Part shown: positions 259 through 21,303 of the stretch, one piece after another | Layout of the letters: the number at the start of each line of letters is the position of its first letter | Position numbering within the stretch: position 1 is the stretch's first letter | DNA from: Tritonibacter mobilis | GTDB taxonomy: Bacteria > Pseudomonadota > Alphaproteobacteria > Rhodobacterales > Rhodobacteraceae | Length of the DNA: 64,000 nt | Reading direction: 5' to 3' | Assembly (NCBI RefSeq): GCF_001681715.1 | Contig: NZ_LNWY01000001.1 | Location: 124,001 to 188,000 of the forward strand | Made by a program: the position numbers and the translations under genes | Notes under the pieces: model-generated | Seen by the model: only the letters and a program-made list of their open reading frames with translations | Told to the model about the DNA's origin: nothing | The model's database searches: none

Positions 259-3200
259 ATGCAAGTAAAGTCCCTTTTTGAAAGACCTATCGACAGACCT
301 ATCAACGGTGTGATCAAGGCCGAGCAATTTGATGCTGAATCCGTCTGGCAGGAGCTTGAAGAGTATGTCGTCACCAAAGAACTCGACGTTCATCTTAGAA
401 AATTCTTCGAATCGTATCTGAACGCGATCGACAATTCGCGCGATCCCGACATCGCAAGCAAGGTGGGCGTTTGGGTTTCCGGTTTTTTTGGCTCGGGTAA
501 ATCCCACTTCATTAAGATTCTTTCCTACCTTCTCGAAAACCGTGAAGTCACCAAGGATGGGCAGACCAAGCAGGCCATCGATTTCTTTAAGGACAAGATT
601 CAAGACGCCATGCTGGCAGCGGATATTAAGCGCGCCGTCAGCAGCAATATCGATGTAATCTTGTTCAACATCGATAGTAAGGCCAGCAATGCCGACGGGC
701 GGGACGTGATCCTGCGCGTGTTCTTGAAGGTCTTCAATGAGCGACTGGGCTATTGCGGAGACCACCCGCATATCGCGCACATGGAGCGCTACCTCGATAA
801 GAAGGGTGAGTTCCAGTCTTTCAAAGACACTCTGAAGGCTGAGCATGGCCTCGTCTGGGAAGATGAGCGCGATGCTTATCAGTTCCATTCGGATGCGTTG
901 GCAGATGCGCTCTCCAAGGCGCTCGGCGAGGACATTAAAGACGCTGATGCCTGGCTCGAAAGGTTCGAGCAGGATTTCTCCCTCTCGGTTGAGAGCTTTT
1001 CCAAATGGGTCAAGGAGTACCTAGACAGCCAAGGGCCAGACCACCGTATCATCTTCCTCGTCGATGAGATTGGACAGTTCATCGGTCAGGACACTCACCT
1101 GATGCTCAACCTGCAAACGATCACCGAGAACCTCGGAACGACTTGCGGTGGCCGTGCGTGGGTATGCGTGACGTCGCAAGAAGACATGGATGCTGTGCTC
1201 GGCGAGTTGCGTGCGTCCAAGTCCAATGACTTTTCCAAAATTCAAGGCAGGTTCAAGACGCGCTTGTCTCTGTCGGGCGCGAACGCGGATGAAGTTATTC
1301 AGAAGAGGCTTCTCTCCAAGGTGGAATTGGCCAAGGAAGAGCTGGGCAAAGTTTACGACCAGAAGGCCGATATCCTCAAGAACCAGCTCAGTTTCAAGAA
1401 CGTTGGCATGACCTTTAAGCCCTATGCTGACAAAGATGACTTCATCGATGTTTATCCGTTCGCGCCTTACCAGTTTCAGCTGGTCCAGAAAATTTTCGAC
1501 AGCAGCCGCCGTTATGGTGCTACCGGCCTTCACCTGGCAAAAGGCGAGCGCTCAATGCTGGACGCATTCCAAACAGGTGCGATGGATGTGGCGAACGAAG
1601 AAGTGGGCGTTCTCGTGCCCCTGTACCGTTTTTATCCTGCCATCGAGAGCTTCCTCGAAGGCGTGGTGCGCAGAGCGATTGAAAGCGTCAAGAGCAACCC
1701 CAATCTCGAAGAGTTCGACGAAAACGTTCTCAAGACGCTTTTCCTCATTCGCTACGTTGATGAGATCACAGGCAACGTCGATAACCTCGTAACGCTCTTC
1801 GTCGATGAGATTGACGCTGATCGCCTAGAATTGCGCAAAAAGATCGAGGCCAGCCTGCAACGTCTGGAGAAAGAGACGCTCGTCAATCGTAATGGCGAAG
1901 ACTACTTCTTCCTGACCAACGAAGAACGCGACATCAGCCGCGAAATCAAAGATGTCGATCTCGGGTCGGGTGAGGAAACCAAGCTCCTCGGCGACATCAT
2001 CTTCGATGAAGTGCTTGGCACCCTGCGCAAGTACCGTTACCCCGAAAACAATAAGGATTTCGGGATTTCGCGGCTTGTGGACTTGCATCCCTATGGCAGC
2101 CGCAGTGAAGGCGATCTGGTAATCTCGGTCATCACGCCGCTTTCCGATGAGTACGACGCTTTCGGCGATGCTCGGTGTATTACTCAAAGTACAGCCGATG
2201 ACGGCCAGGTCGTGATCCGCGTCGATGATGACAAGGCGCTTGCCAGAGAGCTGCGCACCTACCTGCAGACCGACAAGTATATCAAGCGGAAGAATGACGG
2301 CACCGCGACCCACACAACGCAGAAAATCCTGCGGGAACGTAGTGATGAGAACCGAGAACGCAAAGAGCGCCTGAAGACGATCCTTGAGCGACTTATGAAG
2401 GAGGCGAAATACTATGCGGCTGGTCAGTCCCGTCCCGCACCTTCCGGCTCGGTCGGCGCTGCGGTCGAGGAGGCGCTTGGCTATCTCGTCAAGAATAGCT
2501 TCCCCAAACTCAGCTACCTCAAGAACCCTGTCAGCAATCCCCAGGCTGAAATTCGTTCTGTTCTAGCCGCACCGGCGCAAGACGGCCTAGGTCTCGATGG
2601 CGGTTCGGTTGCCAACGAGGAAGCGCTCAAGGAAGTTTTGAACTTCGTTTCCCTTAAGAACTCTCAGAATCATAAGGTTGTTCTTTACGATCTGGTTGAA
2701 GATCGCTTCGGGCGTCGCCCCTACGGCTGGAACGACTGGGAGACCGTTCTCCTAGTCGTGCGCCTTGTCATGTTAGGCGAGATCAGCCTCGTCAGTGACG
2801 GCGACAAAACCCTGACGCCCGACCTGATTTCCGGCGCCATTGATGGGCCAAATAAATGGCGTCGGATCAATGTTGTAAAGCGACAGACCGTTGATCGTGG
2901 CAGCCTTCAAAAAGCGCGTGGCATCGCCAAGGACGTTTTTGAGGTCATCGCTCCTGACGGCGAAGACGCCTTGAATACGCATATCCGTGCGCAGCTTGGC
3001 TCTTGGCAGGCAGACCTCTCCGGCTGGAAACCACTCGCCGAGACCGGCAATTACCCCGGATCGGCTGGTATCGCTGACAATCTCGGCGTGATCGCGAAGG
3101 CGCTGAGCATCAACGACAGTTACATGTTCCTGAACCACTTCATCGAATTTCAGGATGACTTCCTCGATATGGCGGATTCCTATGCGGAGCTTCGCAACTT

Positions 3201-3873
3201 CTATGAATCCCAGCGACCGACTTGGGAGAAGCTGCGAAAGGCTAAACAGCGTTTTGATCTGAACCGCTATGAGCTTCTGAAGGACGCTGATGCAGCACAA
3301 GCCCTGCAGCGCATGGATAACATTTTCTCCGCCGAGAAACCCTACGGCATGATCAAAGATGCGGCCACGATCATTGGCCGCGTTGAAGAGGTGAATAAGG
3401 CGCTCCTTAAGAAGCGTCGTGACCATGCGATTGAGAAGATCGACGAGCACCTCGGAAAAGTGAAAGCTGAGCTCGACGAGGCTGGCGCCGCGCCGGAACT
3501 TCGGAACCAATGCCTGCATCCGATCCAGACCATACGATCCGGCATCGAAGGTGAAGAGAGTATCGCCCATATCTTCCAGATGCAGACGGCAGCCCGAGAC
3601 GCTGCCGATGAAGCCTTCATTGCCATCGAGCAAGCTGCGAAAAAGTATGTCCCTGTTCCTCCTGATGGGGGTGGAAAGGCGACGCCACCCGAACCTGACG
3701 CTGAGCCACAGGTCAAGAAAGCTCCTGCCAAGAAGCGGCGCATTGTAGAGCCTAGCCACATTGCTGGTTCTACATATCTTGAGACCAAGGAAGAGGTTGA
3801 TGCCTTCCTCGAAACCCTTCGCAAGGAGCTCGAAGACGCCATCACTAACAACGAACGCGTCGAAATACGCTAA
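259..3873 (+). CDS. brxC: BREX ATPase BrxC (PglY-like P-loop NTPase)
   Basis: A 1204-residue P-loop ATPase of the BrxC/PglY family, the usual size. Walker A is GFFGSGKS at residues 75-82, and Walker B is a hydrophobic run ending in D269-E270 ('IIFLVDEIGQ'). Helical, charged sequence dominates the C-terminal third, and a Lys/Pro-rich linker ('PPEPDAEPQVKKAPAKKR') comes near residue 1145, before the tail. BrxC is essential for BREX phage restriction and host methylation and probably works as an assembly with BrxB, PglX and PglZ. The ATG at 259 follows brxB by 15 bp with a purine-rich AGAAGAGAAG leader. Only 14 bp separate it from pglX, so they are co-transcribed. The gene appears intact. Confidence 0.95.
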   Translation: MQVKSLFERPIDRPINGVIKAEQFDAESVWQELEEYVVTKELDVHLRKFFESYLNAIDNSRDPDIASKVGVWVSGFFGSGKSHFIKILSYLLENREVTKDGQTKQAIDFFKDKIQDAMLAADIKRAVSSNIDVILFNIDSKASNADGRDVILRVFLKVFNERLGYCGDHPHIAHMERYLDKKGEFQSFKDTLKAEHGLVWEDERDAYQFHSDALADALSKALGEDIKDADAWLERFEQDFSLSVESFSKWVKEYLDSQGPDHRIIFLVDEIGQFIGQDTHLMLNLQTITENLGTTCGGRAWVCVTSQEDMDAVLGELRASKSNDFSKIQGRFKTRLSLSGANADEVIQKRLLSKVELAKEELGKVYDQKADILKNQLSFKNVGMTFKPYADKDDFIDVYPFAPYQFQLVQKIFDSSRRYGATGLHLAKGERSMLDAFQTGAMDVANEEVGVLVPLYRFYPAIESFLEGVVRRAIESVKSNPNLEEFDENVLKTLFLIRYVDEITGNVDNLVTLFVDEIDADRLELRKKIEASLQRLEKETLVNRNGEDYFFLTNEERDISREIKDVDLGSGEETKLLGDIIFDEVLGTLRKYRYPENNKDFGISRLVDLHPYGSRSEGDLVISVITPLSDEYDAFGDARCITQSTADDGQVVIRVDDDKALARELRTYLQTDKYIKRKNDGTATHTTQKILRERSDENRERKERLKTILERLMKEAKYYAAGQSRPAPSGSVGAAVEEALGYLVKNSFPKLSYLKNPVSNPQAEIRSVLAAPAQDGLGLDGGSVANEEALKEVLNFVSLKNSQNHKVVLYDLVEDRFGRRPYGWNDWETVLLVVRLVMLGEISLVSDGDKTLTPDLISGAIDGPNKWRRINVVKRQTVDRGSLQKARGIAKDVFEVIAPDGEDALNTHIRAQLGSWQADLSGWKPLAETGNYPGSAGIADNLGVIAKALSINDSYMFLNHFIEFQDDFLDMADSYAELRNFYESQRPTWEKLRKAKQRFDLNRYELLKDADAAQALQRMDNIFSAEKPYGMIKDAATIIGRVEEVNKALLKKRRDHAIEKIDEHLGKVKAELDEAGAAPELRNQCLHPIQTIRSGIEGEESIAHIFQMQTAARDAADEAFIAIEQAAKKYVPVPPDGGGKATPPEPDAEPQVKKAPAKKRRIVEPSHIAGSTYLETKEEVDAFLETLRKELEDAITNNERVEIR

Positions 3874-3887
3874 GGAAGACGAGCAGG

Positions 3888-6800
3888 ATGACGATCAATA
3901 CCAACGCGCTCAAGACATATGCCCCCAAGGCTCGCAAGGACTTCATTGCGGCCATGGTCGCCCGTGCCGCGAAGTTTGGCATCTCGAAAAAGGAGATAGT
4001 CGAGCAGCGAGAGCAGGGCGAAATCGTCATTGTCGGATCGGATGCTCTCCCCAAGAAGGTCGGAGAGCAACGCAAAAGACTAGCCATACGCATACAGCAG
4101 AAAGGTTTCGAGCAAGCGATGGAGGCGGTGGCCTACACGTGGTTCAACCGCTTGGTTGCCATCCGCTACATGGAGCTTCACGGTCTCCTTGATCATGGCT
4201 ATCGCGTTCTCAGCCACCCTTCCGGCAAGGAGCTCCCTGAAATTTTGGAGCACGCCGAGCACCTAGATTTTCCGGGGCTCGATAAGAGCGCGGTCATCGA
4301 TCTGAAGCTCGACGGCACCAAGGATGCCGAACTCTACCGAATACTTCTCATTGCGCAGTGCAACGCGCTGCACCGCGCAATGCCGTTCCTTTTCGAGCGC
4401 ATCGATGACGAGACTGAGCTGCTGCTACCTGACAACCTCCTTCACTCGGATTCTCTGATCCGAAAGCTTGTCGCCGCCATCGATGAGGCTGACTGGCAAG
4501 ATATCGAGGTCATAGGCTGGCTTTACCAGTTCTACATTTCTGAAAAGAAGGATGAGGTCTTCACCGGACTGAAGAAGAACCAGAAGATCACGGCCGACAA
4601 GATACCCGCGGCAACCCAGCTATTCACGCCGCACTGGATCGTTCGATACCTGGTTGAGAATTCGCTCGGAAGACTCTGGCTACTGAACCGGCCGGAATCA
4701 CGGCTCGCCGAGCAGATGGACTACTACATCGCGCCCGAAGAGCCCGAGACCGACTTCCTGAAGATCGGCAAGCCCGAAGAGATCAAGGTCTGTGACCCGG
4801 CCTGCGGTTCCGGGCATATGCTGACCTACGCCTTCGATCTTCTCTACGCGATCTATGAGGAAGAGGGCTATGACCCGAAGGAGATTCCGGCCCTCATCCT
4901 CAAGCATAACCTGACTGGCATTGAGATCGACGACCGCGCTGGCGCACTGGCGGCCTTCGCATTAGCGATGAAGGCTGCAGAGAAGCTCGGGCGGCGGCGG
5001 TTCCTGCAGATGGATGTGAGGCCCGACATTGTCGTGCTGCAGGATGTCGCCTTCACGACAGAAGAGATGACAGATGTGCAGGCCGTCGTCGGGCGCGACC
5101 TCTTCACAGACGAGCTGCGCGAGACGCTCCAGCAGTTTGAGCAGGCGAAGAATTTTGGCTCGCTGATTGTGCCGAAGATGCGCGACCCGGCTGAGACGCT
5201 TCGGCTGGTCCAGGAACGGGACTTCAGTTCTGATCTATTGCTCAATGAGGTACAGGACCGCGTATTGGCAGTGTTGCAGATGGCCGAGGCCCTGTCGCCG
5301 AAGTATCACGTGGTTGTGGCCAACCCACCATACATGGGTGGAAAAGGAATGAACGGAAAGCTGGGAGGTTTTGCCAAGGCCGAGTATCCGGACAGCAAAA
5401 CCGACCTGTTCGCCATGTTCATGGAGAGAGGAGGGAGTTTAGCAAGAGCGAACGGATTTATCTCAATTCTTAATCTTCCATCATGGATGTTTTTGTCATC
5501 CTTCGAAAAGCTTCGTAAAAAATTACTCCAGAACCTTCACATTACGTCATTACTTCAGCTGGGTAGAGGTCTGTTCGGTTCGGATTTTGGAACTGTTGCA
5601 TTCTGCCTGAGAAACTCACCATCTCGCGGAGAAATGGGAGTTTATCGACGGCTTTTTGAAAAGCACGTTGATGTAAGAAAGCCTGATGTCATTGAGCAAC
5701 TCTTTCTCGATAAGGAATACAACAAATTTTCCTCTTCAGCAGAGGTTTTCCAAAAACTTCCCGGGTCTCCAATAGCGTATTGGTTGAGCGAGGGTCTGAT
5801 ACGTTCGTTTGCGGAGAACAAGAAAATCGGCGATCATTTTCGTGGTTCGTTTGGAATGTCTACAGGCGACCCAACTGTGATCAAGTATTGGCCTGAAGTG
5901 TCCTTTAATAGAGTATTGCTTGATCAAGTGGAGCCCTCAGCATTTACAGAGAAGGCGCCATTTGCGCCGTATGACAAGGGAGGCGAGTTTCGCAGGTGGT
6001 ATGGCAACAGAGCACACGTCATCAATTGGGAGAATGATGGGGAAAAAATACGCTCTAGCCAAAAGTCGGCGGTCAGAAATGCGAAATACTTCTGTTTGCC
6101 ACATGTTTCGTGGACACTGGTGACATCCGGAAGCTATTCTTGCAGGATTTTTGAGCAAGGGTTTCTCTTGGACACTGCATCAAACGCAATCTACGAGAAT
6201 CCAAATATTTCAATTAGTTTTCTAGCGGCAGCTCTAAACTCGAAATATATGAGCCATGTAGCTCCAATTATTAATCCAACGTTGAATTTTAGCTGCGGTG
6301 TGGTCGACAATGTTCCGTTGCCGAACATGCCGAAGGATAAGAAAGAAATTGTCGAACGGACTGCGGAAAAATGCAGAGACATTGCGAAGCGCGATTGGGA
6401 CGCCTACGAAACCTCTTGGGACTTCACCACGCTCCCGCTGCTCTTGCCCGATCACCGGGCCGGGACGCTGGAGGCCACCCATGCCCGCCTGCGCACCCAT
6501 TGGCATGGCATGACGGATGAGATGCAGCGGCTGGAGGAAGAGAACAACCGCATCTTCATCGACGCCTACGGCTTGCAGGATGAGCTGACTCCCGAGGTGT
6601 CGGTTGATGAAATCACCCTGACTTGCAACCCGGCCTATCGCTACGGCGTGAAGGGGACGGAAGATGAGCGCGAAGAGCGGATGCTTTCCGACACGATGAA
6701 GGAGCTGATATCCTATGCCATCGGTTGCATGATGGGACGCTACAGCCTCGCCGAGCCCGGCCTCATCTATGCGAATGCGGGGAATGAAGGCTTTGACGCA

Positions 6801-7430
6801 TCGCGATATGGCGACTTCCCGGCAGACGATGACGGCATCGTGCCGATCACGGAGGTTGAGTGGTTCGACGATGATGCCGCGCTGCGGTTCGAAGAGTTCC
6901 TTAAGGTCGCCTGGTCGCCTGAAACCTTGCGCGAGAACCTTCGTTTCGTCGCTGAAGGCCTTGCCTCTAATGGTGGCAACGATCCGCACAAGACGATCCG
7001 AAACTACATCTCCAAAAGCTTCTTCAAGGATCATATGCAGACCTACAAGAAGCGCCCGATCTACTGGCTTTTTTCCAGCGGAAAGTTGAAAGCTTTCGAG
7101 TGCTTGGTTTATCTCCATCGCTACAATCAGGGCACTCTGTCGCGAATGCGGATGGAATACGTGACGCCACTGCAAAGCCGCATGGCTGCGCGGATCGATA
7201 GTCTGGACGATGATATCGCCGCGGCGTCTTCTTCTGCTGCCCGCACAAAGGCACAAAAGGAAAAAGACCTCATGATGAAGCAGCTTGAAGAGCTGCGCGC
7301 CTTCGATGAGGAACTACGACACTTTGCAGATCAACGCATTTCTCTCGATCTCGACGACGGCGTGAAGGTCAATTACGGCAAGTTCGGAAACCTCCTTGCT
7401 GAGCGCAAAGCCATTACAGGGGAGAAGTGA
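3888..7430 (+). CDS. pglX: BREX adenine-specific DNA methyltransferase PglX (BrxX)
   Basis: A 1180-residue N6-adenine methyltransferase that marks host DNA at the BREX recognition site. The SAM-binding motif CDPACGSG is at residues 302-309, and the catalytic NPPY motif is at 479-482 ('VVVANPPYMGGKG'). Residues from about 520 to 820 should form the target-recognition part. This stretch is noticeably AT-rich compared with both flanks (see findings), as if replaced by recombination. The C-terminal part contains the usual charged helices. The start ATG at 3888 follows AGGAAGACGAGC, and the stop TGA (7428-7430) overlaps the pglZ ATG. No frameshift is visible, so it should be functional. Confidence 0.96.
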   Translation: MTINTNALKTYAPKARKDFIAAMVARAAKFGISKKEIVEQREQGEIVIVGSDALPKKVGEQRKRLAIRIQQKGFEQAMEAVAYTWFNRLVAIRYMELHGLLDHGYRVLSHPSGKELPEILEHAEHLDFPGLDKSAVIDLKLDGTKDAELYRILLIAQCNALHRAMPFLFERIDDETELLLPDNLLHSDSLIRKLVAAIDEADWQDIEVIGWLYQFYISEKKDEVFTGLKKNQKITADKIPAATQLFTPHWIVRYLVENSLGRLWLLNRPESRLAEQMDYYIAPEEPETDFLKIGKPEEIKVCDPACGSGHMLTYAFDLLYAIYEEEGYDPKEIPALILKHNLTGIEIDDRAGALAAFALAMKAAEKLGRRRFLQMDVRPDIVVLQDVAFTTEEMTDVQAVVGRDLFTDELRETLQQFEQAKNFGSLIVPKMRDPAETLRLVQERDFSSDLLLNEVQDRVLAVLQMAEALSPKYHVVVANPPYMGGKGMNGKLGGFAKAEYPDSKTDLFAMFMERGGSLARANGFISILNLPSWMFLSSFEKLRKKLLQNLHITSLLQLGRGLFGSDFGTVAFCLRNSPSRGEMGVYRRLFEKHVDVRKPDVIEQLFLDKEYNKFSSSAEVFQKLPGSPIAYWLSEGLIRSFAENKKIGDHFRGSFGMSTGDPTVIKYWPEVSFNRVLLDQVEPSAFTEKAPFAPYDKGGEFRRWYGNRAHVINWENDGEKIRSSQKSAVRNAKYFCLPHVSWTLVTSGSYSCRIFEQGFLLDTASNAIYENPNISISFLAAALNSKYMSHVAPIINPTLNFSCGVVDNVPLPNMPKDKKEIVERTAEKCRDIAKRDWDAYETSWDFTTLPLLLPDHRAGTLEATHARLRTHWHGMTDEMQRLEEENNRIFIDAYGLQDELTPEVSVDEITLTCNPAYRYGVKGTEDEREERMLSDTMKELISYAIGCMMGRYSLAEPGLIYANAGNEGFDASRYGDFPADDDGIVPITEVEWFDDDAALRFEEFLKVAWSPETLRENLRFVAEGLASNGGNDPHKTIRNYISKSFFKDHMQTYKKRPIYWLFSSGKLKAFECLVYLHRYNQGTLSRMRMEYVTPLQSRMAARIDSLDDDIAAASSSAARTKAQKEKDLMMKQLEELRAFDEELRHFADQRISLDLDDGVKVNYGKFGNLLAERKAITGEK

Positions 7431-10030
7431 TGGATAGCGCGCAGATCAAATCGAACCTAGAACGTCTCTTCGCAAAAGGTGCGCGCGTCGTGTTTTGGCG
7501 CGACGGAGACGGTGAGTTCGAAGAGATGCTGTCGTCTCTGAAGATCGATGGAGTCGAGTTGCGCCACATTGGTGAAGTGCCTGCGTTGGCGCTGAAGTCA
7601 GAGTTGGAGCTCGAAAGCGCAGGCGTGCCGTTCCTTCTATATGAGAAAGGTCGTGTGCCTGATCCTGAAACGGACTGGCTTCTCGACGTGCGCTTCTATG
7701 CGGAACCCTTTGCTGCCGATCGTTCGACCATGATCTTGCGCGAGCTCGGTATTCTGGAGCAGGCGCTTAGGGATCACGTCGCAGCGCGCGGCAAGTTCTT
7801 TGCGAGCAAAGAACGTCTCGCGAAAGCGCAGAAGTTCATCGAACCCTCTGATGATGCCGCTGCAATCGACCGTGCTTTGATGGCAGCCATATTGCGTACA
7901 GAGCAGACAGACATATTCTCCTTGGTTCGGGCGCTTCTTCATACCATCGACCACGACAATCTTGATGCGACGCCGACAACATGGCTGGAAATCGAGAAGT
8001 ACGACTTGGCAGACAGTTTCTGGACCCAGGTACGCGATACCTTTGGTTTTGATGAGGCTGAGCCTAGTCTCAAGTCCTTCCTGATGCGCTTGCTGATTAC
8101 TGATTTCGCGCGCAGCCTCGATGGCGCGTGTCCGAAGGCGCTCGCTCATCTTGTATTGCCGAGCAAAGGGGCTTCCAACGCCGTCGTTTGTGTCGGGCAA
8201 TGGCGCGATAGTGCAAGGCTGCACGAAAGCTATGATGCGCTATCCGCGGCCGTTGCTGAACTCGTCAAGCTTGGAGACCACCTTGGCGATCTTGATATCG
8301 ATGAAGTGGCGGAAGCTCGCACCTTCTTGCTCACCGAGAAGTACATCGCTAGTCGTCTGCGCGACAGGATCATCGATACGGCTGAGACGATCAATCTTGA
8401 GGCAATCCGAGACATCGTCACTAGACGGCAGAACGGTTATTGGGCGAACAGCAGACTGCCGTCGAGCCACAATGCACCTCGACTGGCGCTTGACCAGGTC
8501 TATACCGCACTGATGTCCGCCGCTGAGTTCCTTGATTTACGCGGCAAATACCCGACAGGCTTCAATTTTAAAGACGGAAAAGCATTCTTCGATGCCTATG
8601 TTGGCGAGCTCTATCAGTTCGATCAGCTCTACCGCCATTTCTGCGACGCCGCTGATTCAGCGGAAGCCGAGGGCTGGGATATTCTCAAGGCGCTGCGCGA
8701 CAAGATCGAAGATGCCTATGGCAACTGGTATCTTGGTCATCTCGCAGTACGTTGGGGCGAAGCTCTCGATGCGGGTGGCTTGCTGGATACGTGGCGACTC
8801 CCGGCGGTGGATAGCCAACAGCACTTCTTCAAGCGGAATCTGCAGCCAAGGCTTGATGAGGCAGATGACCGTCGCGTCTACGTCGTCATCAGTGATGCTT
8901 TCCGCTACGAAGCGGGGCAGGAACTTCTGCAGGAACTGAACGGGCGTTATCGATTTTCAGCGACACTCAAGCCGCAACTAGGGGTTCTGCCGTCGTACAC
9001 TGGTCTTGGGATGGCAAGTCTTCTTCCGCACAAGACACTGAGCTACACCGATGCGGGCGCCGTGATGGCGGACGATATGCCGACGAGTGGCCTCGCCAAC
9101 CGACAGAAAATTCTCGCCAAGGTGGATGGTACGGCTATCAAGGCTGACGACTTCATGGCGATGAGCAAGAGTGTCGGCCGTGAGTTCATCAAGCCCTATA
9201 GAGTCATCTATATCTATCATAACCAGATCGATCAGACGGCTGACACCGGCAACGAGGAAAAGACCTTCGCGGCGGTTCGCAACACGATCGCCGAACTCGG
9301 AAACATCGTGGCCAGGATCGTCAATACACTGAACGGCAACTACGTAGTCGTGACGGCAGACCACGGCTTCCTGTTCCAGGAGAGTGCACCAACAGAGAGC
9401 GACAAGAATTCCATCACAGACAAGCCGTCGGGCACTGTAATCAGTAAGAAGCGCTACCTCCTTGGTAAGTCGCTGTCCCACCACGCAGGCGCGTATCATG
9501 GAAAGACCAGTGTTACGGCCTCGGCGAATGGTGACATGGAATTTTGGGTGCCTCGCGGCACAAACCGCTTCCACTTCGTTGGCGGTTCACGATTTATTCA
9601 TGGCGGAGCCATGCCGCAAGAAATTGCCGTGCCTGTCATCCAGATCACGCAGCTAAAAGGTAAGAGCGCGGTTAAGACGCGCACTAGAAGCGTGGGGATC
9701 AGTTTGCTCGGATCGAGCCTTAAGATCACGACGAGCCGCTACCGCTTCAAGTTTATCCAGACAGAGGCCGTGTCAGAGCGCATAAAGCCGCTTAAGGTGA
9801 GGGTGGCCATCTACGATGGGGATGACCCCGTCACCAATGTCGAAACGCTGTCCTTCGACAACGATTCAAGTGACATGAACGAGTGGCGCAAGGAGGTCTG
9901 GCTGACCCTTGCCAGTCGAACCTTCGACAAGAAGCGCCGCTACCAACTAATTGCCCGCAACGCCGAGACAGACGTCGAGGAGGTGCGGATGGACGTAACC
10001 ATAGACCTGGCATTCGATAATGACTTCTGA
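7430..10030 (+). CDS. pglZ: BREX phosphatase-like protein PglZ
   Basis: An 866-residue PglZ protein of the alkaline-phosphatase/sulfatase superfamily, the defining component of BREX. The superfamily metal-site signatures are visible: 'VVISDAFRYE' with D489, and 'VVVTADHGFLF' with D644-H645. A more variable N-terminal half precedes the catalytic domain. An in-frame GTG lies one codon upstream (7427), but the ATG at 7430 is preferred because GGGGAGAAG is well placed and the ATG overlaps the pglX stop (TGATG), a sign of translational coupling. The 3' end overlaps brxL by 11 bases. PglZ contacts PglX and BrxB in studied systems; its true substrate is not established. Confidence 0.95.
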   Translation: MDSAQIKSNLERLFAKGARVVFWRDGDGEFEEMLSSLKIDGVELRHIGEVPALALKSELELESAGVPFLLYEKGRVPDPETDWLLDVRFYAEPFAADRSTMILRELGILEQALRDHVAARGKFFASKERLAKAQKFIEPSDDAAAIDRALMAAILRTEQTDIFSLVRALLHTIDHDNLDATPTTWLEIEKYDLADSFWTQVRDTFGFDEAEPSLKSFLMRLLITDFARSLDGACPKALAHLVLPSKGASNAVVCVGQWRDSARLHESYDALSAAVAELVKLGDHLGDLDIDEVAEARTFLLTEKYIASRLRDRIIDTAETINLEAIRDIVTRRQNGYWANSRLPSSHNAPRLALDQVYTALMSAAEFLDLRGKYPTGFNFKDGKAFFDAYVGELYQFDQLYRHFCDAADSAEAEGWDILKALRDKIEDAYGNWYLGHLAVRWGEALDAGGLLDTWRLPAVDSQQHFFKRNLQPRLDEADDRRVYVVISDAFRYEAGQELLQELNGRYRFSATLKPQLGVLPSYTGLGMASLLPHKTLSYTDAGAVMADDMPTSGLANRQKILAKVDGTAIKADDFMAMSKSVGREFIKPYRVIYIYHNQIDQTADTGNEEKTFAAVRNTIAELGNIVARIVNTLNGNYVVVTADHGFLFQESAPTESDKNSITDKPSGTVISKKRYLLGKSLSHHAGAYHGKTSVTASANGDMEFWVPRGTNRFHFVGGSRFIHGGAMPQEIAVPVIQITQLKGKSAVKTRTRSVGISLLGSSLKITTSRYRFKFIQTEAVSERIKPLKVRVAIYDGDDPVTNVETLSFDNDSSDMNEWRKEVWLTLASRTFDKKRRYQLIARNAETDVEEVRMDVTIDLAFDNDF

Positions 10031-12065
10031 ACTAACAATTGATGTGGGGCTTGATGAGCAACTGAACCGGAATTTTGCGGGCAAGGTCGTTCGGAAAGAC
10101 CTGACCAAACTCCTTAAAGAAGGGGCGAACGTTCCCGTTTATGTCCTTGAGTACCTGCTCGGGATGTACTGCGCCTCGGATGATGACGATATCATTCAGG
10201 AGGGCCTGAAGACCGTAAAGAAGGTGCTCGCCGAGAACTACGTGCGCCCCGACGAGGCCGAAAAGATCAAATCGAAGATCAAGGAACGCGGAAGCTTCAA
10301 GGTCATCGATAAGGTCACCGTCAGGCTCAATGAAAAGCGCGACATATATGAAGCACTGCTTTCAAACCTTGGCATCAAGGATGCCGAAGTGTCAGCCAGT
10401 GACGTGAAGCGCTTCGAAAAGCTGCTCGTAGGCGGCATCTGGTGTATCGTCACTGTTCATTACTACCATGAAGAAGGCCAGAAGGGTTCGCCGTTCACCA
10501 TCGGTGACCTGAAGCCGATCCAGATGCCCAACATGGACATGGAGGAGTTCTTCGAAGGACGGATGGCTTTTAGCGAAGAAGAGTGGATCAACGTTTTGCT
10601 CCGCTCGACGGGCATGGAGCCGACGGTGCTAGACGAGCGCGTGCGGTGGCACTTGCTCGCGCGAATGATCCCCTTCGTCGAGAACAACTACAATGTCTGT
10701 GAGCTAGGGCCTCGCGGCACAGGCAAAAGCCACATCTACAAAGAGTGTAGCCCGAATAGCATTCTGATTTCGGGTGGCCAGACTACCGTTGCGAACCTGT
10801 TCTACAACATGAGCCGCCGCCAGGTCGGTCTTGTCGGGATGTGGGATTTGGTCGCTTTCGACGAGGTAGCTGGCATCTCCTTCAAGGACAAAGACGGCGT
10901 ACAGATCATGAAGGACTATATGGCGTCCGGATCCTTTGCACGTGGTCGCGACGCAATTTCGGCGTCAGCCAGTATGGTCTTCGTGGGAAACATCAACCAG
11001 CCGGTCGATACGCTCGTGAAGACCAGCCACCTGCTTGCGCCTTTCCCCGAGGCGATGATCGACTCTGCGTTCTTTGATCGCTTCCACGCCTATATTCCAG
11101 GGTGGGAAGTGCCTAAGATGCGGCCTGAATTCTTCACAAACCGCTATGGGCTGATCACCGACTACCTGGCTGAGTTTATGCGCGAGATGCGAAAGCGCAC
11201 CTTCGCGGACGCCATCGACCAGTTCTTCAAGCTCGGAAACAATCTCAATCAACGCGATACCATCGCCGTGCGCAGGACGGTGTCGGGTCTGCTGAAGCTC
11301 CTCTACCCACATGGCGACTATGATAAGGAAGCCGTACGTCGTTGCCTCGAATACGCACTTGAGACGCGTCGCCGTGTGAAAGAGCAGCTCAAGAAAATCG
11401 GTGGCATGGAGTTCTATGACGTTCACTTCTCATACATTGATAACGAAAACCGAGAAGAGCACTTCGTTGCCGTGCCCGAGCAGGGTGGCGGAAACCTGAT
11501 CCCTGAAGGTCCACTGAAGCCTGGTGTCTTGCACACTGTCGCTACCGGCAGCTCGGGACACCTCGGCCTATATCGACTCGAGACGCAAACGACAGCAGGC
11601 AACGGCAAGCTAACGACTTCAGGGCTTGGCTCGAACGCTGCGGCAAAGGAGGCTCTTCGCGTCGCGTTTGACTATTTCAAGGCCAACATCTCTCGTGTCA
11701 GTGGGAGCACGAAAGCGGGTGATCATGACTTCCATGTTCACTCGGTCGAGCTTCAGAATACGGGGCCAACCAAAACAATGACACTCAGCGGCTTCATCGC
11801 CTTTTGCTCTGGCGTCATGCAGAAGCCACTGCAAGGACAGCTCGTCGTTCTTGGTGATATGAGCCTGGGCGGAAATATCGTTCCTGTAGAAAATCTTGCC
11901 GAATGCCTACAGGTTGCCTTCGACAGTGGGGCCAAGCGTATCCTGCTGCCTATGGCAAGCGTGGGCGATATCCCGACGATTCCGGGTGAGTTATTCGCGA
12001 AATTCCAAACGTCATTCTATAGCGATCCTGTCGATGCGGCATTCAAGGCGCTCGGTGTGGAGTAG
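10020..12065 (+). CDS. brxL: BREX Lon-like ATPase BrxL
   Basis: A 681-residue BrxL protein: an N-terminal DNA-binding region, a central AAA+ domain with Walker A GPRGTGKS (residues 230-237) and Walker B 'LVAFDEVAG', and a C-terminal Lon-protease-like domain ('LGDMSLGGNIVPVENL', 'GAKRILLPM'). BrxL forms a DNA-binding ring in known type I BREX systems and is needed for phage exclusion; proteolysis has not been shown. The gene begins inside the pglZ end (11-base overlap), so its translation is coupled. With brxB, brxC, pglX and pglZ it confirms the type I subtype. Confidence 0.95.
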   Translation: MTSELTIDVGLDEQLNRNFAGKVVRKDLTKLLKEGANVPVYVLEYLLGMYCASDDDDIIQEGLKTVKKVLAENYVRPDEAEKIKSKIKERGSFKVIDKVTVRLNEKRDIYEALLSNLGIKDAEVSASDVKRFEKLLVGGIWCIVTVHYYHEEGQKGSPFTIGDLKPIQMPNMDMEEFFEGRMAFSEEEWINVLLRSTGMEPTVLDERVRWHLLARMIPFVENNYNVCELGPRGTGKSHIYKECSPNSILISGGQTTVANLFYNMSRRQVGLVGMWDLVAFDEVAGISFKDKDGVQIMKDYMASGSFARGRDAISASASMVFVGNINQPVDTLVKTSHLLAPFPEAMIDSAFFDRFHAYIPGWEVPKMRPEFFTNRYGLITDYLAEFMREMRKRTFADAIDQFFKLGNNLNQRDTIAVRRTVSGLLKLLYPHGDYDKEAVRRCLEYALETRRRVKEQLKKIGGMEFYDVHFSYIDNENREEHFVAVPEQGGGNLIPEGPLKPGVLHTVATGSSGHLGLYRLETQTTAGNGKLTTSGLGSNAAAKEALRVAFDYFKANISRVSGSTKAGDHDFHVHSVELQNTGPTKTMTLSGFIAFCSGVMQKPLQGQLVVLGDMSLGGNIVPVENLAECLQVAFDSGAKRILLPMASVGDIPTIPGELFAKFQTSFYSDPVDAAFKALGVE

Positions 12066-12096
12066 AGCTTCGTCATTTAAGGGGTAGAGCAGAGCC

Positions 12097-14703
12097 GTGA
12101 CAAACGCGATAAAATCCGAAGCCGATGCCCTGAAGGACATTCTCGCGTGGTCGCAGGCTAGGCCTGTCTGGCAGTGTGACGCTCTGAAGCGATTGATAAA
12201 AAAGGATACCCTCAGCGAGCAGGATATCGATGAGCTGACAGCGCTGTGCCTCGACGACGCTCTTCAAAGCGCTGCGCTCGAAGAAGTTGATCTGTCGTCG
12301 CCTGCCTCCGGGCTACCGCCTGTTCAGCTGAAATCGGTCGGCAACGTCCATAACGTCAACGCTCTTGCCGAGAACCAGCGGCTTAGCTTCCTCGATAAGG
12401 GCATCACTATCATCTACGGTGACAACGGCGCCGGAAAGTCGGGGTATGTCCGCATCCTCAAACAGGCCTGCCGCGCGCGAGGCCGCCACGATCCCATCCT
12501 CACCAACATCTATGAGGCAGCGAGTGGCCCGCAGACAGCCGAGATCGGCTTTCTGTCCGGTGGTCAGACCCAATCGGCACAATGGCAAGACGGCGCCCCT
12601 GATACCGATCTTCTAACTGCAGTTAGTGTGTTTGATACGGCGACCGCCAATGTCCACGTCGATGCCACGAACGACGTGGCCTACACGCCGCTGCCGATGA
12701 AGCTGCTTGAGCGGCTCGTCCAGGCCTGCCGTTCGGTAAAAGGCCGGCTCGATGCTAAGGTGACTGAGATCGAAGCACAGACACCGCACGTGCTTTCCGA
12801 GCCCTCATGTGCACCAGATACCGCCGTAGGGAAGCTGATCGCCGGTCTCAATAAGGACACCACGGAAGATGACATCTCGCGACTGTCGGTACTTTCCGAC
12901 GATGAGACCAAGCGCCACGCGCAACTTGCCGCAGACCTAAGCCAAGACCCGGCCGCCCTCATCAAGCGCTTGGAAAGCTATGTCAGACGTCTCGGGCGGT
13001 TGTCAGCGGATATCGCCGCTTTGGAAAACGCCGCATCCGCCGAAACGCTGGACCGCTTGAACGCCCTGGATGAGGATTTGCGCCGGAAGAGGGAGGCTGC
13101 GCGCATGGCTGCAAGCAGGCACTTCGACGCCGATGTCCTACCCGGAACAGGTGGAGAAGTCTGGCGTCTCTTGTGGGACGCGGCGCGCGTATACTCCACG
13201 CAAGAAGCCTATCCTAAGGAGACCTTTCCGTCGGTCGCCGAGGGGTCCCGTTGCGTGCTATGTCAGCAAACGCTGACACCGGAGGCCTCAGGCCGTCTCG
13301 AACGGTTCGAAACCTTCGTAAGGGACCGCACACAACGAGACGAAGAGGCCGCGCGCGACGCAGTCTCCGAGTTCATCGCGAACTTGAGCGAAGAGCTCCC
13401 CTCCGCGCGCCGTGTTCGCGAGGAGGTATTGTTTTTAACAGATGACTTGGCCGAGAGCGAGCTAAGCCAGGCCTTTCGCCGGTTCGCGCTGACAGCCAAA
13501 TGGGTTCTTCGGGAAATCCTTCGGAAGCGCGCAGGGACCATGCCCGGCGCTCTCGCGTCGCCTCTCGAAGCGCTTGAACAAGCGGCAGTCTCGATTAGCC
13601 AACGCATCGACACCCTTCGTGCCGATGAGGACAGCCCGGAGAGACAAGCCCTGCACCAAGAATACCAAGAACTCTCCGACCGAAAGTGGCTGGCCGGTGT
13701 CAAAGACGACGTCATCGCCGAGATCGGTCGCAAGAAACAGCTCCATGAGCTCAAGCAAGCGATCCGGGATACCAGGCAGAACGAGATCACAACCAAAAGC
13801 ACCGAGCTCGCTGAGGCCCTCGTGACTGACAGGCTTCGAGGCCGGTTCGCCCAGGAGGTTGACCATCTCGGGATTGCAGGGCTTGCCGTTGAACTGAAAA
13901 AGGAGCGCAGTCAGCACGGCGTTCCCCAATTCAGGGTCAGCCTTATTCACAAACCCGATGCGAAGGCTGGGTCTATCTTGAGCGAAGGTGAGCATCGCTG
14001 TGTTGCGCTGGCCGGTTTCATGGCCGAGCTCTCTACGACCGACAACCATTCGGGCATCATCTTTGATGATCCGGTTTCCTCGCTCGATCACCTCCACAGG
14101 GAAGCCATCGCCAAACGGCTCGCGCGCGAGGGCAGGGATCGACAGGTGATTGTCTTCACCCATGACTTGCCGTTCCTGTTTTTGCTGGAGCGCGCGTGTA
14201 GTGAGCCCGACGATGGCCTGCCGCAAACACCCGTCGCCATCAGGCACGTCGCCAAACGTGGAGACCGACCCGGTCATTGCGAAAATCAGGCCCCGATGAA
14301 AGCGCAGAGTGCTACCAAACGGGTCGAAACCATTGGAAAGCACCTCGCCAACACGCGACTGCAGTATGATCAAGACCCCGAGGTGACCTGGCTCTTCACC
14401 GCGAAAGGCATCCTCGGGCAAATTCGCGACACTTGGGAGAGTGCCGTCGAGGCCGCCGTGGCGCCGGTCATCAAAACCTTCTCTCACAAGGTCAACACGA
14501 AAGGTTTCGCCAAGCTCTCCGTGATCACAGAAGCCGATGCAGAATCCATGCGTGCAGCCTACGGTCGTTGCTCCGAACTCCTCCATCACGCCAGTGATGC
14601 AATGAACCCCTCGATCCCAACTCCTGACCAGATCGAAGTCGAACTCAAAGCTCTTGCCGAGTGGCTGGAGGACATTTCGCAGCGGCAAAAAGCCGTCTCA
14701 TAG
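12097..14703 (+). CDS. RloC-like ABC-ATPase, probable anticodon nuclease (BREX accessory)
   Basis: An 868-residue SMC/ABC-type ATPase (AAA_13 class). Walker A is GDNGAGKS at 108-115. The ABC signature region is 'SEGEHRCVALAGF' near 629, Walker B is 'IIFDDPVSSLD' with D657-D658, and 'VIVFTHD' is the switch histidine. Between the two halves, coiled-coil-like charged helices flank C386-V-L-C389, resembling a Rad50/RloC zinc hook. C-terminal to the ATPase are R777-x3-E781 and H830-H831, reminiscent of the Arg/Glu/His triad of PrrC/RloC tRNA nucleases. RloC proteins cut tRNA anticodon loops when host DNA defences are damaged. The GTG start is 31 bp after brxL, in the same direction. Domain order is seen; nuclease activity is inferred. 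The alternative is a generic AAA_13 ATPase. Confidence 0.7.
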   Translation: MTNAIKSEADALKDILAWSQARPVWQCDALKRLIKKDTLSEQDIDELTALCLDDALQSAALEEVDLSSPASGLPPVQLKSVGNVHNVNALAENQRLSFLDKGITIIYGDNGAGKSGYVRILKQACRARGRHDPILTNIYEAASGPQTAEIGFLSGGQTQSAQWQDGAPDTDLLTAVSVFDTATANVHVDATNDVAYTPLPMKLLERLVQACRSVKGRLDAKVTEIEAQTPHVLSEPSCAPDTAVGKLIAGLNKDTTEDDISRLSVLSDDETKRHAQLAADLSQDPAALIKRLESYVRRLGRLSADIAALENAASAETLDRLNALDEDLRRKREAARMAASRHFDADVLPGTGGEVWRLLWDAARVYSTQEAYPKETFPSVAEGSRCVLCQQTLTPEASGRLERFETFVRDRTQRDEEAARDAVSEFIANLSEELPSARRVREEVLFLTDDLAESELSQAFRRFALTAKWVLREILRKRAGTMPGALASPLEALEQAAVSISQRIDTLRADEDSPERQALHQEYQELSDRKWLAGVKDDVIAEIGRKKQLHELKQAIRDTRQNEITTKSTELAEALVTDRLRGRFAQEVDHLGIAGLAVELKKERSQHGVPQFRVSLIHKPDAKAGSILSEGEHRCVALAGFMAELSTTDNHSGIIFDDPVSSLDHLHREAIAKRLAREGRDRQVIVFTHDLPFLFLLERACSEPDDGLPQTPVAIRHVAKRGDRPGHCENQAPMKAQSATKRVETIGKHLANTRLQYDQDPEVTWLFTAKGILGQIRDTWESAVEAAVAPVIKTFSHKVNTKGFAKLSVITEADAESMRAAYGRCSELLHHASDAMNPSIPTPDQIEVELKALAEWLEDISQRQKAVS

Positions 14704-15063
14704 CTGCCTCTCATAGCTGAGCGGGATACTTCTCACGCTCGTCGGCAAATATAGTCCAAGGCGAGCCCGCCGATTCAACATTGGTCGTGGGTGGGACGCC
14801 GATCCGAAAAGATTCAATAAACCATGGGAACAAAATCTGTCCCACCGATCTCTAAGGTATTGAACTTACATTGCTCTGCGATGCCGCCCCCGGGCACCAC
14901 AATCACTTCCAGTTGTGGTCTGTAATTTCTTCTAATAGCCTGATTTCTGTCGAAAACATCGGACCCTTTGTCCGAGTTTGTCCGGAGCGATCCAGCCCAA
15001 TCTACCCTCAATGGGGGTATGGGTCGGGGTACCGCCGAGGTCGTGAAATGAGGGTACCCCCAG
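14704..15063. other. Non-coding stretch between the RloC-like gene and the integrase remnant
   Basis: About 360 bases without a convincing gene. A short inverted repeat, TGGGA...TCCCA, lies near 14824-14843. Just before the integrase start a run of GGGGGTAT / GGGGTACC / GGGTACCCCC words (about 15010-15063) resembles the arm- or core-site repeats often found beside integrase genes. The position suggests an old attachment or excision region, but no exact copy of the tRNA-Arg 3' end was found here. Confidence 0.35.
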
Positions 15064-15333
15064 ATGCCTGTTCTGAGCGATGCCAAAGTCCGCGCGCTGA
15101 AGCCGAAAGAGAAACCCTATAAGCAAGCCGACTTTGACGGTTTGTTCCTATTGGTCAATCCCGGTGGCTCCAAACTTTGGCGTTGCAAATACCGCTGGAT
15201 GGGTAAAGAGAAGCTGCTCTCTTTCGGAAAATACCCTGATCTGAGCCTCAAGCAGGCTCGGGCCCAACGGGACGATGCACGTAAGCTACTTGCCGAACCG
15301 CAGTTCCCGAGTCGCCCTCCATGGCTATGCTGA
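15064..15333 (+). pseudogene. Tyrosine recombinase (P4-type integrase) N-terminal fragment
   Basis: The first 78 or so residues match the N-terminal arm-binding domain (DUF4102) of P4-type phage/island integrases: 'MPVLSDAKVRALKPKEKPY', then 'DGLFLLVNPGGSKLW.CKYR' and 'LSFGKYPDLSLKQARAQRDDARKLLAE'. Family members are about 400 residues with a C-terminal R..H-R-Y catalytic domain. Here similarity stops near base 15298 and about a dozen unrelated residues lead to a stop. The catalytic domain is missing, so it cannot recombine DNA. The lost part is replaced by the reverse-oriented remnant of a glyoxalase-fold gene, marking a deletion or recombination scar. Confidence 0.85.
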
Positions 15334-21226: not shown

Positions 21227-21303
21227 TGGCGACCCCGGCAGGATTCGAACCTGCAACCTGCCCCTTAGGAGGGGGCTGCTCTATCCAGTTGAGCCACGGG
21301 GCC
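21227..21303 (-). tRNA. tRNA-Arg (anticodon CCU)
   Basis: Read leftward, this folds into a full cloverleaf. The acceptor stem is GGCCCCG with CGGGGTC (one G-T pair), the anticodon stem GCCCC/GGGGC holds loop CTCCTAA with anticodon CCT, and the T arm is GCAGG-TTCGAAT-CCTGC. The discriminator is G and CCA is encoded (21227-21229). It decodes AGG arginine codons. The 3' end faces the BREX/TniQ region, the usual geometry for an island inserted at a tRNA 3' end. Confidence 0.95.

Follow-up and report, generated by a model that had tools for sequence, protein, structure and literature searches.

Directly behind brxL, a type I BREX locus of Tritonibacter mobilis ends with a gene whose product resembles RloC, and the question raised by this locus is whether such a protein guards BREX or acts on its own. 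The original prediction described an RloC-like anticodon-nuclease candidate fused into a BREX operon, and proposed that phage counter-defence against BREX would set it off. Analysis of the whole 64,000-nucleotide stretch of DNA (the window) and of related loci suggests, with a probability of about 0.7, that the gene encodes an RloC-type, DNA-sensing and RNA-cutting abortive-infection effector, which is probably transcribed with BREX and would be independent of it.

The gene and its BREX locus

The ORF is intact (12097-14703, plus strand, GTG start) and comprises 868 codons, giving a protein of 868 aa, with 0 internal stops. The window starts inside the type I BREX locus and the RloC-type gene forms the end of that locus.

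259..3873, plus strand: brxC, BREX P-loop protein (NCBIfam BREX_BrxC, E 0)
3888..7430, plus strand: pglX (brxX), BREX-1 adenine methyltransferase (NCBIfam BREX_1_MTaseX, E 0)
7427..10030, plus strand: pglZ, BREX-1 type A (TIGR02687, E 6.8e-250)
10020..12065, plus strand: brxL, long Lon-like form (TIGR02653, E 0)
12066..12096, plus strand: gap of 31 bp between brxL and the RloC-type gene, without terminator-like or promoter-like site
12097..14703, plus strand: RloC-type ABC ATPase with zinc hook and putative HEPN-like domain, 868 aa (PADLOC PDC-S06, Pfam AAA_13)

The brxA gene is located just upstream, outside the window (L152:18826-19671), and the order brxA, brxC, pglX, pglZ type A, brxL matches that of type I BREX loci. 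The frame between brxA and brxC is presumably brxB-like. The BREX genes are confirmed, together with the predicted position of the gene directly behind brxL. The word 'fused' does not apply, since brxL ends at 12065 and a separate ORF starts at 12097. The RloC-type gene is placed in an operon-like manner on the same strand as brxL and is probably co-transcribed with it. A scan of positions 11800-15200, limited to certain promoter types, returned 0 promoter-like sites, while five terminator-like sites were found in the same region against a chance mean of 3.6, none of them in the 12066-12096 gap; one on the plus strand (14896-14919) is located downstream of the RloC-type gene. The GC content of the gene is 59.1% as against 53.2-55.2% in the four BREX genes, whereas GC at third codon positions is similar (67.2% versus 64.4-66.9%).

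Upstream of brxA, an AbiEi/AbiEii toxin-antitoxin pair is present on the minus strand (L152:16756-18481, corresponding to window positions -3244 to -1519), so that the BREX locus is part of a wider defence island. The sole tRNA gene of the window, tRNA-Arg(CCT) on the minus strand at 21227-21303, is situated 6.5 kb beyond the RloC-type gene and is a possible border of the island.

Conserved motifs, family and predicted fold

Relatives of the protein were taken from genome samples, plasmids, one genome-contig match and viral contigs. The plasmid search matched 265 records, of which 13, chosen among 60 matches listed, were examined, and the viral-contig scan yielded 54 loci, 23 of which (L061-L083) were counted as window type. 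With the window protein alone as query, the genome-contig search returned one locus and the viral search 0 matches. The first alignment consisted of 33 sequences (window and 32 relatives), after exclusion of ORFs of <820 residues and of duplicates of the same locus. Addition of 19 viral-contig relatives, excluding L061, L068, L077 and L080 (cut short or split), gave a larger set of 52 sequences (window and 51 relatives). The relatives L002, L034/L134, L068 and L080 are split over two ORFs, like broken copies. Features of the window protein, based on the 52-sequence alignment unless stated otherwise, are as follows.

12097..12321, plus strand: N-terminal helices before the ATPase, residues 1-75, with W18 and W25 (32/33 each)
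12418..12441, plus strand: Walker A GDNGAGKS (108-115)
13252..13263, plus strand: CVLC hook (386-389), both Cys 52/52
13981..13992, plus strand: ABC signature SEGE (629-632)
14056..14073, plus strand: Walker B IIFDDP (654-659), followed by the D-loop
14161..14163, plus strand: switch histidine H689, 52/52
14311..14700, plus strand: putative HEPN-like C-terminal helical domain, residues 739-868 (predicted structure)
14425..14427, plus strand: R777, 52/52
14437..14439, plus strand: E781, 52/52
14584..14586, plus strand: H830, 52/52

The ABC ATPase residues G108, K114, S629, E632, D657, D658, D664 and H689 are each present in all 52 sequences and, in the predicted structure of the ATPase, helices flank the CxxC hook on both sides, in agreement with the proposed ABC ATPase split by helices and CxxC at 386-389. 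C386, C389, R777, E781 and H830 are invariant in the first set (33/33) as well as in the larger one, and beyond the ATPase only G726, R777, E781 and H830 are kept in 52/52. Conservation of the R, E and H residues among homologues had been named beforehand as a point on which the prediction might fail, and it is complete. Of the predicted C-terminal R777-x3-E781 plus H830/H831, therefore, all stand except H831, which occurs in the window alone (1/33) and leaves H830 as the sole possible triad histidine.

E781 and H830 are separated by X48 in the window, within the published RloC rule R-X3-E-X36-52-H, in which Ser often precedes the His and is not required (PMC2610378). Across the 52 sequences the spacing is 48 (19), 49 (6), 50 (17) or 51 (10). 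Because the bare motif arises in 434/2000 shuffles of the last 169 residues, the case for the triad rests on conservation. The residue before the triad His is Leu in the window and Ser in 2/52 sequences, as compared with 33/37 of the shorter RloC proteins described below. The HEPN motif Rx4-6H is represented in the window by R824-X5-H830; column 824 holds R in 15/33 and K in 15/33, and in 38/52 sequences an R or K stands five to seven residues ahead of the triad His.

The protein matches the PADLOC family PDC-S06 over its full length (E 1.9e-194), several PDC-S06 models giving a match, and Pfam AAA_13 at E 6.2e-15; all 19 members scanned (19/19) match AAA_13 at E up to 1. The PADLOC PrrC model covers only residues 644-694. 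A group of shorter proteins was found by the PDC-S06 model PDLC04886, with plasmid relatives in addition. Their hook is C-x-F-C at 268-303 (11/11), and with viral members included all of the group (37/37) have the R, the E or D, and the H, with a spacing of 37-54. These positions fit those of the published G. kaustophilus RloC (C291, R692, E696, H737), and the shorter group can thus be taken, on residue positions, as RloC proper. In comparison, the window subfamily has extra helices before the ATPase, with Walker A at 108 versus ~48, and a hook further along the chain (386-389 versus 268-303 in the 11 shorter RloC). The window gene indicates an RloC subfamily whose front end is longer. We did not find the N-terminal module as a part common to other proteins: a consensus of 70 residues matched 36 plasmid records, and the four checked were, by annotation and length, two whole ATPases of RloC-type length, an adjacent ORF pair that may be one split ATPase, and a stretch of short hypothetical genes. 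When the PDB was searched by sequence with three queries (the window protein, a shorter RloC and a PrrC), no PrrC/RloC entry came up at E up to 1.

The full-length AlphaFold2 model (22 sequences; mean pLDDT 84.8, pTM 0.58) has a predicted Rad50/SMC-like fold: the first Foldseek match is the Rad50 chain 7zr1_C (E 5.0e-10), followed by SMC, JetABC and Lamassu chains. The C-domain, modelled separately from 21 sequences, is a helical bundle (pLDDT 88.5, pTM 0.79) in which R777 and E781 are on one long helix and H830 sits where a later long helix ends. Among 350,542 PDB chains it matches best to 2hsb, a HEPN domain, at a weak E of 0.052 (prob 0.97). Of the best 50 of 542 matches, eight are titled HEPN, two are titled MntA-HpeT and a further one is the toxin-antitoxin entry 7bxo, of the same pair, most of the rest being helical proteins of other kinds; 0/542 PDB matches have E <0.001, nor does any match in the viral structure library. 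The structural comparison proposed with the original prediction agrees with it for the full-length protein and points to a possibly HEPN-like C-domain.

By profile, the C-domain is distant from those of RloC and PrrC. The window-type C-domain (52 sequences) was compared with those of the 37 shorter RloC and of seven PrrC using HHalign and column shuffles. Against the shorter RloC the score is 22.4, a value reached in 0/100 shuffles (mean 9.6, maximum 16.1), with an HHalign probability of 4.8%; against PrrC it is 16.3, with a probability of 0.6% and 2/100 shuffles as high. A coiled-coil control scores 6.4 and 7.6, and the accepted relatives RloC and PrrC score 31.1 (49%) against each other. As for the predicted alignment with the known triad, R-X3-E-X48-H obeys the published rule and H falls in register with RloC, whereas R and E do not. 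Such weak scores leave homology of the C-domain unproven by sequence, and it is fold rank, invariant residues and architecture that carry the case.

Linkage to BREX among relatives

BREX genes around the relatives were sought with the window BREX proteins as tblastn queries (E 1e-8) at 57 loci, namely 20 chromosomal, 23 viral and 13 plasmid loci plus L009. Besides the window, BREX is present at two of them, L044 on the Methylomonas koyamae plasmid pLM6 and L063 on a viral contig, where the RloC-type ORF begins one base past the brxL stop. At the other 55/57 it was not found within flanks of <=6 to 14 kb, which are often ended by the contig edge, so that linkage may be missed. The closest relatives (51-44% identity) have no BREX in the flanks examined; at L009:3032-4966, the closest one (51%) comes after genes for a C5-cytosine methyltransferase and a GIY-YIG protein on its contig. 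On a quick tree, BREX linkage requires three changes, each forced by well-supported branches. Three separate gains would be the simplest reading, the alternative being one gain and two losses.

The reverse survey, of BREX loci for an RloC-type neighbour, went against the predicted guarding role. BrxL matches at E 1e-50 were obtained in 17/398 genomes, and the stretch examined at the 16 other BrxL loci contains in no case (0/16) a gene of the window type, for a shorter RloC or for PrrC, five of the contigs being short (3.1 to 12.9 kb). Among 596 plasmid records matching BrxL or the RloC-type protein, ~330 of which hold BrxL (by subtraction, many as near-copies), 0/596 have both genes in one place covering >=80% of the joined query, a search that wider gaps such as that in pLM6 escape. 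Within the same bacterial family, the BREX locus of genome G625 (L153, G625:C37) is closely related to that of the window (BrxL 94%, BrxC 81%, PglZ 72% and PglX 52% identity) and is without an RloC-type gene, the DNA similarity ending at the brxL stop codon. The gene behind its brxL runs on the opposite strand and has a Fic domain. The presence of an RloC-type gene or a Fic gene behind related brxL genes makes the position resemble a slot for changing cargo. At another BrxL locus (L155, G390), the flank on the brxL side has an ORF that appears, read by eye, to be deaminase-like with a P-loop front.

Mre11/Rad50-like pairs of SbcCD or YhaON type are present near the RloC-type gene at 5/57 relatives' loci as a raw count (SbcCD-like or YhaO/YhaN-like pairs at L063:8504-13083, L070:8562-13063, L044:9217-13934, L048:7045-11804 and L039:18708-23729). 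Two of the five, L044 and L063, are the BREX loci, and in L063 the gene order is pglZ, brxL, RloC-type, sbcD, sbcC. The same queries found such a pair at 0/14 control BREX loci and none in 84 kb around the window gene. At least two papers on RloC name Mre11. On another viral contig (L067:6001-9825), the RloC-type gene has a PrrC gene (56% to the L011 PrrC) immediately behind it.

Pairing of RloC-family genes with BREX is not new. It has been reported in 2013, in the part of that paper available, that the RNase domains of RloC and PrrC are HEPN domains and that, in a few instances, RloC-family genes occur inside large Pgl operons with PglX, PglY, PglZ and other genes, maybe including one for a Lon-type ATPase (Anantharaman 2013, PMC3710099), which is the same pairing as in the window. 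Beyond that report, the available text of papers naming both RloC and BREX holds nothing on an RloC gene behind brxL, and titles on BREX with AAA_13 or on BREX accessory genes yielded none on RloC pairing. Back-up effectors are described as common in BREX, the name RloC occurring 0 times in the main text of that source (PMC12839542), and in another excerpt RloC adjoins a type III R-M system while BREX is in other islands (PMC11680222). The original interpretation is therefore supported in part: the likeness to RloC is upheld, the operon link is real and was in print already, and guarding of BREX is not supported.

Function and comparison with known systems

The RloC reading is favoured by a hook and triad kept in 52/52 sequences, of the same residue kinds and order as in G. 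kaustophilus RloC, in which mutation of R692, E696 or H737 is reported to abolish activity (PMC2610378), and by the ABC motifs, size, AAA_13 match and predicted folds. Counted against it are the weak E of the C-domain, the many other helical bundles matched, the HHalign probabilities, the R and E out of register and the rarity of Ser before the His. We suggest that the Rad50-like ATPase and its zinc-hook arm would keep the C-terminal HEPN-like RNase off, that DNA ends or damage arising in infection would release it, and that the released RNase would then cleave RNA, tRNA anticodon loops being the likeliest target, so that growth stops. The RNase activity, the tRNA target, the DNA-damage trigger and the co-transcription with brxL are all inferred. 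The protein probably regulates itself and has BREX beside it without depending on it; its autonomy is suggested by the 55/57 loci without BREX in their flanks and by the related BREX locus with a Fic gene instead. We likewise consider it likely that the gene is the last, swappable gene of the type I BREX locus and encodes a putative translation-disabling RNase.

Several other explanations, some compatible with one another, have to be weighed. The same build could belong to a HEPN RNase which is not an anticodon nuclease and cuts other RNA, for example mRNA. The distance of the C-domain from RloC and PrrC by profile and the existence of HEPN families that act on other targets, RNase LS among them (PMC3710099, in part), speak for this, but the whole architecture, the hook and the order and spacing of the triad match RloC, and we regard it as unlikely. 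That BREX proteins hold the RloC-type protein inactive until a phage inhibiting BREX frees it, as with PrrC and EcoprrI, appears decidedly unlikely. The 31 bp distance on the same strand, the L063 ORF starting one base after the brxL stop and the precedents of PrrC and PARIS as guardians (PMC12707154, in part) are in its favour, and linkage changing three times on the tree suggests that the association is not one frozen accident. However, BREX is found at only 2/57 relatives' loci and not in the flanks examined of the closest relatives, the genome and plasmid surveys (0/16 and 0/596) gave no further joined pair in the stretches covered, and the available text on RloC describes activation by DNA-break inducers, even in a foreign host (PMC3874168). 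Nor is a usual guarding of type I loci by RloC borne out by the published set, of which, as far as that text goes, 8/72 members map to type I or III loci (PMC2610378). A related scheme, in which BREX proteins would load or hold the RloC-type protein and either BREX inhibition or BREX-made DNA ends would release the RNase, seems very doubtful. If such coupling were true, a phage beating BREX would meet tRNA cutting, and the recurrence of SbcCD-like pairs beside relatives would suggest DNA ends as the signal in common. Finally, a Rad50/SMC-like ATPase for DNA repair or DNA exclusion with a non-catalytic C-domain would agree with the Rad50, SMC, JetABC and Lamassu matches and with the SbcCD-like or YhaON-like pairs near 5/57 relatives. 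It is nevertheless highly improbable, as a mere bundle would not need the R, E and H that are invariant in the C-domain, and no such pair was found in the 84 kb around the window gene. The window together with G625 provides a clean case of an RloC-type BREX-1 end gene, in which guard and independent cargo can be told apart by moving one gene.

Among known systems, RloC, an anticodon nuclease that excises the wobble nucleotide of tRNA, is the closest in design. The set of Davidov and Kaufmann (2008, PMC2610378, in part) contains 72 proteins of 658-897 aa with 13/70 GUG starts, and the window protein is alike in its split ABC head, CxxC hook, C-terminal R-X3-E-X36-52-H, size of 868 aa and GTG start, RloC genes also being mostly away from R-M loci. 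It is unlike RloC in the N-terminal helical extension, the hook at 386-389, the rare Ser before the His and a window-type spacing of 48-51 versus 37-54 in the 37 shorter RloC. The PADLOC candidate family PDC-S06, which it matches in full length, is given by PADLOC without a function and also includes PDLC04886, the model finding the shorter RloC group. The RloC-family HEPN genes in Pgl operons (PMC3710099, in part) resemble the window gene in the company of PglX, PglZ and a Lon-type ATPase. PrrC with EcoprrI is alike in combining an ABC ATPase with an R-X3-E...H RNase domain beside a restriction-type system, but PrrC has 341-416 aa, lacks a hook and is silenced by its own R-M enzyme; identity of the window protein as PrrC is out by its size, its hook and its BREX rather than type I R-M locus. 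PARIS (AriA/AriB), in the portion of the source available, is likewise an ATPase-controlled tRNA cutter adjoining BREX as a second layer, and differs from the window protein in consisting of two proteins, an OLD ATPase and a TOPRIM protein (PMC12839542).
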